From NCBI GenBank assembly GCA_021324365.1, contig JAJPJE010000058.1, forward strand, positions 1-42,629: a stretch of 42,629 bases of DNA, in the 5' to 3' direction. Positions 3,475-8,045 of this stretch are shown here, piece after piece (positions within the stretch are counted from its first letter, which is position 1; every line of letters begins with the position of its first letter). Under the pieces are notes generated by a model. It searched no databases. It saw nothing but the letters and a program-made list of their open reading frames with translations, and was not told the DNA's origin. The DNA comes from Terriglobia bacterium (GTDB lineage Bacteria > Acidobacteriota > Terriglobia > Terriglobales > Acidobacteriaceae). A program made the position numbers and the translations under genes.

Positions 3475-3606
3475 ATGGCGTCTCTCATCGAAAACTCGAT
3501 GCTGAAATGGAGTCTCCTTCTCGATGCCAAGGATTTGTCGAAGGCTGTTGTTGGCGTGCCTCCTTCTGATTCCCTCGCTCAACATTGCTGTTGCGCAGTC
3601 CGCTGA
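3475..3606 (+). CDS. Possible 43-codon leader frame overlapping the amt start
   Basis: An ATG at 3475 sits behind the best ribosome-binding site of the region (GGAGG at 3467-3471, 3-base spacing after GGAGG), yet it is in a different frame from amt. It reads 43 codons (starting MASLIENSMLKWSLLL, ending in a Cys cluster) and stops with TGA at 3604-3606, 80 bases inside amt. Either it is a leader peptide that couples translation to amt, or a one-base indel has separated the true amt start from its body. I do not recognise the peptide. Confidence 0.3.
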   Translation: MASLIENSMLKWSLLLDAKDLSKAVVGVPPSDSLAQHCCCAVR

Positions 3607-4966
3607 GTCCTCAGCACCGGCAATCTCCACTGCTGCCACAGTTTCGCCAGAACGAATCACGACTCTGGAGAAGCAGGTGGCCGATGCCAAAGGTTCGGCC
3701 GATAACGCATGGATGTTGGTAAGCGCTGCTTTGGTTCTGATGATGACCGGCCCCGGTCTTGCATTGTTCTATGGCGGACTGGTGCGTAAGAAGAATGTGC
3801 TCTCGACCATGATGCAAAGCTTTGCCATGATGGCTGTTATTACCGTGCTCTGGGCTATTATCGGCTATAGTCTCGCCTTCGGCTCCGGGACCGGCTTTAT
3901 CGGCGGCTTCCATCATCTTTTCCTCAGTGGTGTTGGCGCTGCTCCGAATCCTGACTACGCGCCCACAATTCCCCAGCAGACGTTCATGATTTATCAGCTC
4001 ATGTTCGCCATCATCACGCCGGCGCTGATCACAGGCGCGTTCGCCGAGCGCATGAAATTCAGTGCCATGGCTGTGTTCATGATCCTGTGGTCGATTGTGG
4101 TTTACTCGCCGATGGCGCACATGGTCTGGGGGAAGGGCGGCATCCTGAATGCTTCACTGGGCGGGCGTTTCCCCACGCTTGATTTCGCCGGTGGAACCGT
4201 CGTTCACATTACATCGGGCGTGTCTGCGCTTGTCTGTGCGCTATACCTGGGCAAGCGGATCGGGTATCCAAGCGAGCAGATGCCGCCGCACAGCGTTGTC
4301 CTGAGCTTTATCGGCGCCTGCATGCTCTGGGTGGGCTGGTTCGGGTTCAACGCAGGCAGCGCGCTGAGTTCCGGCAGTCTGGCAACCAGCGCGTTTGTGG
4401 CTACCCATTTCGCGGCAGCGGCAGCTGTGGTTGGCTGGAGCGCAGCCGAATGGATCCTACACGGAAAGCCGAGTGCGCTCGGTGCGATCTCGGGTGCGGT
4501 TGCCGGCTTGGTCGCCATTACGCCTGCTTCGGGCTTCGTCAGCCCGACGTCGGCCTTAATCATCGGACTGGTTGCCGGCGTCGCCTGTTTCTTCATGGTG
4601 TTCAGCGTGAAGAAGAAGCTCGGCTACGACGATTCCCTCGACGCCTTTGGGGTTCACGGCGCCGGAGGCACAATCGGCGCAATCCTGACCGGCGTCTTCG
4701 CGACCCGCACGATCAATCCGATCCTCCACGACTCGGAGGGTGCAGCGCTCAGCCTCGGGTTTGTGGACGGCAATTTCGGGCAAGTTTTCTATCAGATGAT
4801 CGGCGTTGCGATTGCCTTTGCCCTGGCTATTGTGGGGACGCTGGCGATCTTGAAGCTGGTTGATCTGGTGATCGGGCTGCGCGTCTCCAATGAGGACGAA
4901 TTGCAAGGCTTGGACGTCACGCAACATGGAGAAGAAGGTTATTACTGGGAGGCATCCTCGTTGTAG
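3524..4966 (+). CDS. amt: Ammonium transporter (Amt/MEP/Rh family)
   Basis: 480 residues. Residues 1-24 form a signal peptide (RRLLLACLLLIPS core, cut after AVAQ), which is common in long Amt proteins. About eleven membrane segments follow from residue 62. The twin pore histidines are present: H228 in FAGGTVVHITSG and H378 in DAFGVHGAGG. The cytoplasmic tail contains the conserved GLRVSNEDELQGLD and HGEEGY stretch that contacts PII. It moves ammonium across the inner membrane and is gated by the PII protein encoded 54 bases downstream, the classic amtB-glnK arrangement. The ATG at 3524 is preceded only by a poor ribosome-binding site, while a stronger one serves an out-of-frame ATG at 3475, so the exact start is uncertain. 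An in-frame stop at 3503-3505 limits any upstream extension. Confidence 0.95.
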   Translation: MPRICRRLLLACLLLIPSLNIAVAQSAESSAPAISTAATVSPERITTLEKQVADAKGSADNAWMLVSAALVLMMTGPGLALFYGGLVRKKNVLSTMMQSFAMMAVITVLWAIIGYSLAFGSGTGFIGGFHHLFLSGVGAAPNPDYAPTIPQQTFMIYQLMFAIITPALITGAFAERMKFSAMAVFMILWSIVVYSPMAHMVWGKGGILNASLGGRFPTLDFAGGTVVHITSGVSALVCALYLGKRIGYPSEQMPPHSVVLSFIGACMLWVGWFGFNAGSALSSGSLATSAFVATHFAAAAAVVGWSAAEWILHGKPSALGAISGAVAGLVAITPASGFVSPTSALIIGLVAGVACFFMVFSVKKKLGYDDSLDAFGVHGAGGTIGAILTGVFATRTINPILHDSEGAALSLGFVDGNFGQVFYQMIGVAIAFALAIVGTLAILKLVDLVIGLRVSNEDELQGLDVTQHGEEGYYWEASSL

Positions 4967-4981: not shown

Positions 4982-5359
<378 letters not shown>

Positions 5360-5441: not shown

Positions 5442-8045
5442 ATGTCGGCGAGTCCATCACTATTCGATCTGGTCAGAATCCATAGCTCGGAATCCGCCTC
5501 CATTCGCCAGGGCTTCGAGACTACTGGAGACGGCAAGGTCGCTATTGCTCGCCGAACAGCGCTGGTAGACTCCATCGTGGGACGCCTCTGGCAGTAGTTT
5601 GTCGCCGCTGAAATTGATCAACCCGAGGGCCTGAGTCTCCTGGCCCTTGGTGGCTATGGGCGCGGGCATCTATTCCCGCACTCGGACATCGACCTCCTCT
5701 TCTTAACTGAGGAAGAGCGCCCCGATCCCAAGCTGCAGGACCGGATCCGCAAGTTCAACCAAGAATTATGGGATCTGCGCCTTCGCGTCAGTTCTTCCAC
5801 TCGGCCGGTGAGCGATTGCGGTAAGCTCAGCGAGGACAACGTTGAATTTACGATTTCGCTTTTGGACTGCCGATGGCTGGCGGGCGATCGCAAACTCTTT
5901 TCCCGCGTTCACGACCAGATCATCCCCTCCCTGGTGAAGCGCGACTGGCAAACCCTGGTTCAGTTGCTCTCTGAAGTTACCCGTAGCCGTCACGCCAAAC
6001 AGAGCAACACTATTTTTCATCTCGAACCGAATTTGAAAGAAACGCCCGGCGGCCTGCGGGATTTGAATGTCGCCGTCTGGCTATCGCTGATTGCTGCATT
6101 TCAAAAGAACGGCTGGCCGGCCAAAGAAAGCGTTCTTCCAGTTGCGAATCGCGGAGCCATCGATGCTGCGTTTGATTTCATGGCGGCGGTTCGTTGCTTC
6201 CTGCACTACCGCCACGGCCGCGACGACAATACGCTCTCCTGGGACGCACAGGATGACGCGGCCGCACGCGCTATCGGAATTCCCGATCACGCCAAGATTC
6301 CGGCCGCCGACTGGATGCGGGCCTACTTCCGGCATGCACGTGCTATCGATCGCCTGACCACACAATTGCTCGACGAGGTTCCGGCTTCGCGTGCGTCGCT
6401 GTATCAACATTTTCAGCGCTGGCGCTCGCGCGTGTCCAACGGCGATCTGTCGGTGGTAGACGGCCGCATTCTTCTACATACGAATGTAAACATCGACGCG
6501 GCGCTGGTGATGCGTACATTCGAGTTTCTCGCCAAGAACGGATTCCGCCTGAACAGCGAGACCGAACAACGTCTGTCTGATGCCATTGCCACTTTTGTTT
6601 CTAAAGACCTGCGTACGCACACGCTATGGACTCACCTGCGGCATATCCTCGGAGCACCCTTTGCGGCAGATGCGCTGCGTGCGATGCATTCGCTCGGATT
6701 CCTGGTAAAGCTCTTTCCGGAGTACCACCTCATCGACTCGCTGGTGATTCGCGATTTCTACCACCGCTACACCGTCGATGAGCACACGTTCCTCACCATT
6801 GAATCATTGCATCGACTCCTGCTGCCTCCGCAGAAAGAACAGCCCAGCGAATGGGAAACATACTTCGGTGATCTTCTGAAAGAACTCGAACAACCGGAGT
6901 TGCTCTATCTGGCTCTCCTCTTTCACGATGTCGGCAAGGGCCTACCAGGTGAATCCCACGTCGCGAATGGCCTGCCGGTAATGGAACGCAGTTTGCGCGG
7001 TATCGGCGTTCACCAAGAAGAACTGGATACCATCCGTTTCCTGATCACCGAGCATCTCGCGATGTCAGCTACCCTGCGACGCGACATCTTCGATCACGAA
7101 ACGGTTCGCGGCTTCGCCGACAAGATCGGCACACCCGAACGTCTGAAGATGCTCTGCTTAATGACCTACGCCGACATTCGCTCGGTGAACCCCGAAGCGC
7201 TCACGCCCTGGAAGGCCGAGTCGCTGTGGCGTCTCTACATGGCGGCGTCGAATTATATGAATCGCAGTGTCGACGACGATCGGTTCCATGCCGAGTTCGA
7301 GGCAGAAACACTATCTCGCATTGGTGAACTCGTTCCGAAAAAATCCACCGAGCTGCGCAAATACCTTGAAGGGCTGCCGCACCGGTATTTACGGACACAC
7401 TCGCCGATGCAGATCGCCAAGCACTTCGAGATGTCGACAGCGCTGGCAAAAAAGCCGGTACAGATTTCCCTGAAGCATACGCGCGGCCTCTACGAGTTGA
7501 CGCTACTCACCGGTGATCGCCCGCTGGTGTTCGCAACCATCGCCGGCGTCCTCTCCGCCTGGGGTATGAACATCGTGAAGGCGAATGCGTTTGCCAACCA
7601 GGCCGGCACTATCGTCGATACGTTCTATTTCAAAGATCGTTTCCGGACGCTGGAGCTGAATCCGCCGGAACTGGAACGTTTCGAGCACAGCATTGTTCAG
7701 GTGCTCTCGGGAGAAGTTTCCCTTCATAAGCTCATGGAAGGCCGCGAGAGAGTCGCAACCAACGGTCCTACGAAACTACAAACTGCTACACGCCTCGATT
7801 TCAACAACCATTCTTCCTCACACAGTACCTTGCTCGAACTCGTAGCCCAGGACCGACCCGGGCTTCTCTACAAAATTGCTTCCACGCTCGGCCGTTATGG
7901 CTGCAACATTGAAGTCGCCCTCATCGACACTGAGGGCCATGTCGCCATCGACGTCTTCTACCTGACCTGGGAATGTATGAAATTGAGCGGCGAACATCAG
8001 TTTCAGATCCGCCGCGCCCTGCTCGAAGAACTCGAATTGGAATAA
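5442..8045 (+). CDS. glnD: PII uridylyltransferase GlnD, interrupted by an in-frame amber codon
   Basis: Read through, the frame from ATG 5442 to TAA 8043-8045 gives 867 codons, the usual GlnD length. An N-terminal helix (ATGDGK-like TTGDGKVAIARRTALVDS) leads into the nucleotidyltransferase site GGYGRG (residues 70-75) and SDID (D82, D84). Next come the GlnD linker (LKETPGGLRDLN), an HD hydrolase domain (H495-D496 in LFHDVGKG) and two C-terminal ACT domains (about 682-740 and 793-860) that sense glutamine. Codon 52, in LWQ-stop-FVAAE, is TAG (5595-5597). The first ordinary in-frame start after it is GTG 5808, which would give a 745-residue protein without the transferase site but with the HD and ACT domains. 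A single CAG to TAG change, a sequencing error or readthrough are the options. It follows glnB by 82 bases, so amt-glnB-glnD is probably one operon. Confidence 0.88.

Follow-up and report, generated by a model that had tools for sequence, protein, structure and literature searches.

A single in-frame amber codon interrupts an otherwise undecayed glnD in an amt-PII-glnD cluster of an Acidobacteriota draft genome

GlnK is reported to bind AmtB in nitrogen excess, preventing the entry of ammonium, and uridylylation by GlnD to impede this binding (PMC11001197). In S. meliloti, a GlnD lacking its N-terminal uridylyltransferase (UTase) domain is described as giving no PII modification under nitrogen limitation, and the strain carrying it has been interpreted as locked in a high-nitrogen state (PMC3596328). 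The gene considered here shares with described GlnD proteins (TIGR01693) their architecture, the GG...SDID site, the HD motif, an ACT match and an amt/PII neighbourhood; it differs from them in carrying an in-frame TAG at codon 52. This TAG is very probably an isolated, non-programmed nonsense codon, arising either from a consensus error in the draft or from a mutation that arose very recently in the population sampled, and we infer that these two origins are about equally likely. The locus would then be an ordinary amt-PII-glnD cluster whose glnD carries one isolated nonsense codon that is not part of any programme of expression.

The window, by which we mean the whole 42,629-nucleotide stretch of DNA analysed, is contig C68 of a draft genome that totals 4.44 Mb, is split into 125 contigs and is 95.4% complete. 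Three genes lie consecutively on its plus strand and form the cluster: amt, encoding an ammonium transporter (3524-4966; Pfam PF00909, 408 bits; TIGR00836, 454 bits against a cut-off of 343), a gene for a PII protein of the glnK/glnB type (5021-5359; Pfam PF00543, 104 bits), and glnD (5442-8045). From ATG 5442 the glnD frame runs through 51 codons (5442-5594) to ...SIVGRLWQ, meets TAG at 5595-5597 with T as the next base, resumes as FVAAEIDQPEGLSLLALGGYGRG...SDID... and stays open to TAA 8043-8045. The remainder beyond the TAG (5598-8045) holds the GGYGRG...SDID nucleotidyltransferase site, the HD motif and the ACT region, as recognised with TIGR01693, PF08335 and PF01842. Translation of the window gives this TAG as the single interruption between 5442 and 8045, which bears out the preliminary description in placing a TAG between the start of glnD and its transferase site; its statement that PII retains Tyr51 is likewise correct, residue 51 being Y.

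The best relatives of this GlnD in named genomes come from Acidobacteriota, mostly from metagenome assemblies and many of them labelled Acidobacteriaceae. We compared 136 relative loci in which GlnD was matched, representing 132 different proteins; 128 of the loci align at codon 52. Codons 1-51, which on their own gave no Pfam match, align with the N-termini of relatives with equal spacing, and the stop therefore sits within glnD rather than ahead of it. A true glnD start downstream of the TAG was rejected because the upstream N-terminus is common to the relatives, and a frameshift in place of an in-frame stop was rejected because the reading frame is identical on either side of the TAG.

At codon 52 itself the relatives have a residue in 124 loci and a gap in 4, and a stop in none of the 128. 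Thirteen kinds of residue occur there, R (46) and E (28) being the commonest; to judge from this spread, substitutions at GlnD position 52 are tolerated. Three apparent homologous stops among the matches listed were set aside: those in two genomes (G021 and G099, one stop each) are the gene's own end, and in the partial locus of another (G038) the frame is open for 335 codons and the stop falls at the end of the match, as the end of a gene does. The preliminary description took the lost codon to have been CAG, an assumption for which we found little basis: CAG accounts for 4 of the 124 relative codons, and the closest relative among the matches listed, which is 61% identical, has another codon, encoding E. 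With thirteen kinds of residue at the site, CAG this rare and E in the nearest relative, the ancestral codon 52 cannot be inferred. Genome searches that included 398 genomes of the family found none from the same species or genus.

Outside the TAG, the gene is without decay. Scored against TIGR01693 (UTase_glnD), the part after the TAG alone reaches 515.2 bits, slightly short of the curated 519.4-bit cut-off, and covers positions 37-849 of 850. The G-G...D-x-D signature of nucleotidyltransferases is present: G70, G71, S81, D82 and D84 do not vary across 14 aligned rows, two of them from one contig. The HD motif is intact at residues 495-499, with H495 and D496 found in all 129 rows compared; the Pfam HD model gave no match in GlnD at E 0.001. 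In the ACT region one stretch of PF01842 scores above its cut-off and PF13291 slightly below its own, and TIGR01693 covers the region. A sequence search of the PDB with GlnD returned only four sequences, all poly(A) polymerases, matched between residues 314 and 448 with some 30 bits.

Conservation by column gives the same impression of a gene kept whole. Taking as near-invariant every column with conservation of 97% or more across 129 relative loci, we obtained 138 columns; the GlnD of the window agrees with 137 of them, the sole exception being M for L. All 17 such columns that lie 5' of GTG 5808 are kept (2 fall in codons 1-51 and the other 15 in codons 53-122), as are 120 of the 121 that lie 3' of it. 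At a looser threshold of 90%, 210 of 226 columns are kept, divided as 3/3 in codons 1-51, 18/19 in codons 53-122 and 189/204 in the remainder. The earlier assertion that the rest of glnD is intact therefore stands as regards the HD motif, the near-invariant columns and one ACT stretch, the second ACT domain being putative. Judged by this conservation, the entire glnD is a gene that was constrained until very recently or is so still; the lack of decay outside the TAG means that the stop is either young or not real.

A sample of the genome, consisting of the window and 20 further stretches (436 kb in all), was scanned by codon usage for comparable lesions. Twelve stops were flanked on either side by a coding-like frame. 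Read by eye from both flanks, ten of them appear to fall between neighbouring genes, one gene ending shortly before the next, one is a selenocysteine-like TGA and one is the glnD TAG, which alone among the twelve is not followed by a start codon within 45 codons. The scan covers stop codons only, and as no more than 44% of the positions sampled inside long ORFs pass it, it may have overlooked a few further nonsense codons. As far as scanned, the TAG is an isolated lesion, young or spurious. Isolated nonsense codons are ordinary in draft genomes. Literature searches, one for GlnD and one for premature stop codons in assemblies from metagenomes, found nothing, and among the papers listed by a search on nitrogen regulation in Acidobacteria no title or abstract opening mentioned an interrupted glnD or PII in Acidobacteria. 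Taken alone, the nonsense codon is of little consequence, and it counsels caution: the nitrogen physiology of a species is not to be inferred from one base.

That the TAG is a single-base consensus error in the draft assembly, the living cell having an intact glnD, has close to an even chance of being correct. The draft is in 125 contigs, and the tRNA matches that were fetched and typed include neither tRNA-Ile(GAT) nor tRNA-Ala(TGC). These two tRNAs usually lie within rRNA operons, which metagenome assemblies would often lack, and we infer that the assembly is probably metagenome-derived. An error is further favoured by the TAG being the sole unexplained stop of its kind in 436 kb, by the otherwise undecayed state of glnD, and by the retention beside it of amt and of a PII with Tyr51. 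Nonetheless, the longest homopolymer in 5560-5640 is only 3 bases, so that the site is not obviously error-prone, and the scan detected no second nonsense codon in the window.

A real and recent nonsense mutation is a reading that we hold at somewhat less than even. Translation would then end after 51 residues, removing the catalytic site, and uridylylation of PII would be lost, with any leftover activity hinging on rare readthrough or on weak downstream restarts. Going by what is known of GlnD, nitrogen control would in that case sit in the unmodified-PII state, as the preliminary description envisaged, and the unmodified PII would tend to favour a block of Amt whatever the nitrogen state. 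We looked for GlnE, classically among the outputs of PII, with PF03710, which gave no match in the whole genome at E 0.001 (3 of 14 control genomes match); effects via adenylylation of glutamine synthetase are therefore not expected. This usual arm of PII control seems to be absent, which may lower the cost of losing GlnD. Consistent with a tolerable loss, S. meliloti with a UTase-less GlnD is reported to be viable despite growth defects (PMC3596328).

The distribution of GlnD across the family bears on a real mutation from both sides. We surveyed 398 genomes, drawn evenly from a larger group and including that of the window, with the GlnD and PII of the window as queries. GlnD was matched in 336 of the 398 genomes (227 of 256 of good quality) and PII in 341 (again 227 of the 256 of good quality); 328 genomes had both, 49 neither, 13 PII only and 8 GlnD only, making 21 with one of the pair. 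The two are mostly matched or unmatched as a pair (Fisher p ~5e-42, uncorrected for kinship or for incomplete genomes). This suggests, from these sequence matches, a tendency towards joint loss of GlnD and PII in the family, which its named relatives place in Acidobacteriota, and bears on the dispensability of PII signalling. By genus, 21 of 79 had no match to GlnD and 19 none to PII. Because 62 of the 398 genomes have no GlnD match, the family seems to tolerate the loss of GlnD, which makes a real mutation quite possible. However, genomes without GlnD are usually also without PII (49 of the 62 have no match to either), whereas here PII and its Tyr51 are intact; as the two proteins usually occur together, it is unlikely that GlnD has been dead for long while the PII next to it is intact. 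With near-invariant columns preserved almost without exception on both sides of GTG 5808, a real mutation would have to be very young.

The PII of the window is the sole PII match in its genome (with this query, at E 0.001). Among the 136 relative loci, 92 have PII within the fetched stretch, and in 78 of these it lies directly upstream of glnD on the same strand. Tyr51 is present in 89 of the 92; two do not cover the residue and one (L049) has a gap. Thirteen genomes have PII and no GlnD match: 11 of them keep Tyr51, 10 of these 11 being less than 90% complete, and the two with a distant PII have E or Q. One genome that is 100% complete (G281, locus L219) has a PII with Tyr51 and no GlnD match, meaning that GlnD is absent from the assembly or that its PII works unmodified. 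Tyr51 is therefore no proof of a working GlnD.

Very unlikely, in our assessment, is a real stop followed by a downstream restart, the product being a stable HD-ACT fragment that is active in deuridylylation or independently of PII. The first listed start 3' of the TAG, GTG 5808, does open 745 codons, and the candidate fragment (5808-8045, plus strand, 745 residues) would lack the GG...SDID site. PII-independent roles have been reported for the GlnD of S. meliloti, and its delta-glnD-sm2 mutant, in which the UTase domain is deleted, would be a model of a real stop here if restart occurs; that strain is a constructed mutant in which a truncated GlnD is reported (PMC3596328), whereas the present fragment is putative. 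Inspection by eye of the 20 bases before GTG 5808 revealed no Shine-Dalgarno-like sequence, and the clearest purine-rich run, GAGGG at 5625-5629, lies instead ahead of two CTG codons (5631 and 5640). Moreover, once the UTase was gone no PII-UMP would be left for the fragment to remove, and codons 53-122, which it would not use, are not decayed. The earlier proposal that such a fragment is made thus has little to commend it.

Functional readthrough of the TAG, supplying a low or regulated amount of full-length GlnD, is highly improbable. The thirteen kinds of residue at the site in relatives imply that the protein would probably accept most amino acids inserted there, GlnD beyond the TAG appears constrained, and the genome probably recodes TGA as selenocysteine. 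The machinery that amber decoding calls for was nonetheless not found. Within the 436 kb sampled, 239 long ORFs end in TAG 81 times, in TGA 87 times and in TAA 71 times, so that TAG is not avoided as a stop. RF1 (prfA), the release factor for UAG, is present as an unbroken gene that scores 542.9 bits (cut-off 423.25). A search with RF00005, in which 150 of 159 first-look candidates were scored, gave 46 tRNA matches; none of the 45 that ARAGORN typed has the anticodon CUA, and the 46th, which is degenerate, was read as UUU. This search was not exhaustive, since RF00005 missed a tRNA-Sec that its own family detected, and the completeness of the genome also bounds it. For PylS there was nothing above the cut-off, the sole match scoring 24.1 bits against 178.15; in 13 of 14 control genomes the model also matches, in one of them above the cut-off.

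The context of the stop adds little in favour of readthrough. T follows TAG in 21 of 80 TAG-ending ORFs in the genome, so the stop context of glnD is not unusual. A U after the stop is reported to lower readthrough in E. coli and yeast, the bacterial effect being mainly at UAA (PMC5289835), and the T after the glnD TAG may accordingly disfavour it. Two of the checks put forward in the preliminary description, a comparison with related glnD genes and a search for an amber-suppressor tRNA, lend readthrough no support: the site is not conserved, no aligned relative shares the stop, no CUA anticodon was seen among the 46 tRNA matches, and no release-factor defect was found. The same description ranked base error or recent mutation as no likelier than functional readthrough; error or mutation survives as the best reading, and readthrough does not keep pace with it. 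Scarcely credible is the further notion of a real TAG acting as a leaky brake, at which a near-cognate tRNA or a suppressor would allow a little GlnD to be made and so tie PII uridylylation to the state of translation as well as to glutamine.

A degenerate tRNA-like sequence (L187, G000:C9:48567-48637, minus strand) has an anticodon loop that we read as UUU; ARAGORN made no call on it and Rfam scored it at the gathering score of 29 bits. Bacterial selenoproteins, in which TGA is read as selenocysteine, resemble glnD in that a sense frame runs on beyond the stop, and differ from it in that the stop of glnD is TAG, for which no amber-decoding machinery was found. The genome has one candidate of this class: on contig C84 (L195, G000:C84, minus strand, 7047-7595) the frame of an AhpC/TSA peroxiredoxin runs through a TGA at 7365-7367, reading FTGG-TGA-TKEM. 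The PF00578 match spans this TGA, a tRNA-Sec typed tca by ARAGORN lies at C89:57236-57330, and the peroxiredoxin TGA probably encodes selenocysteine.
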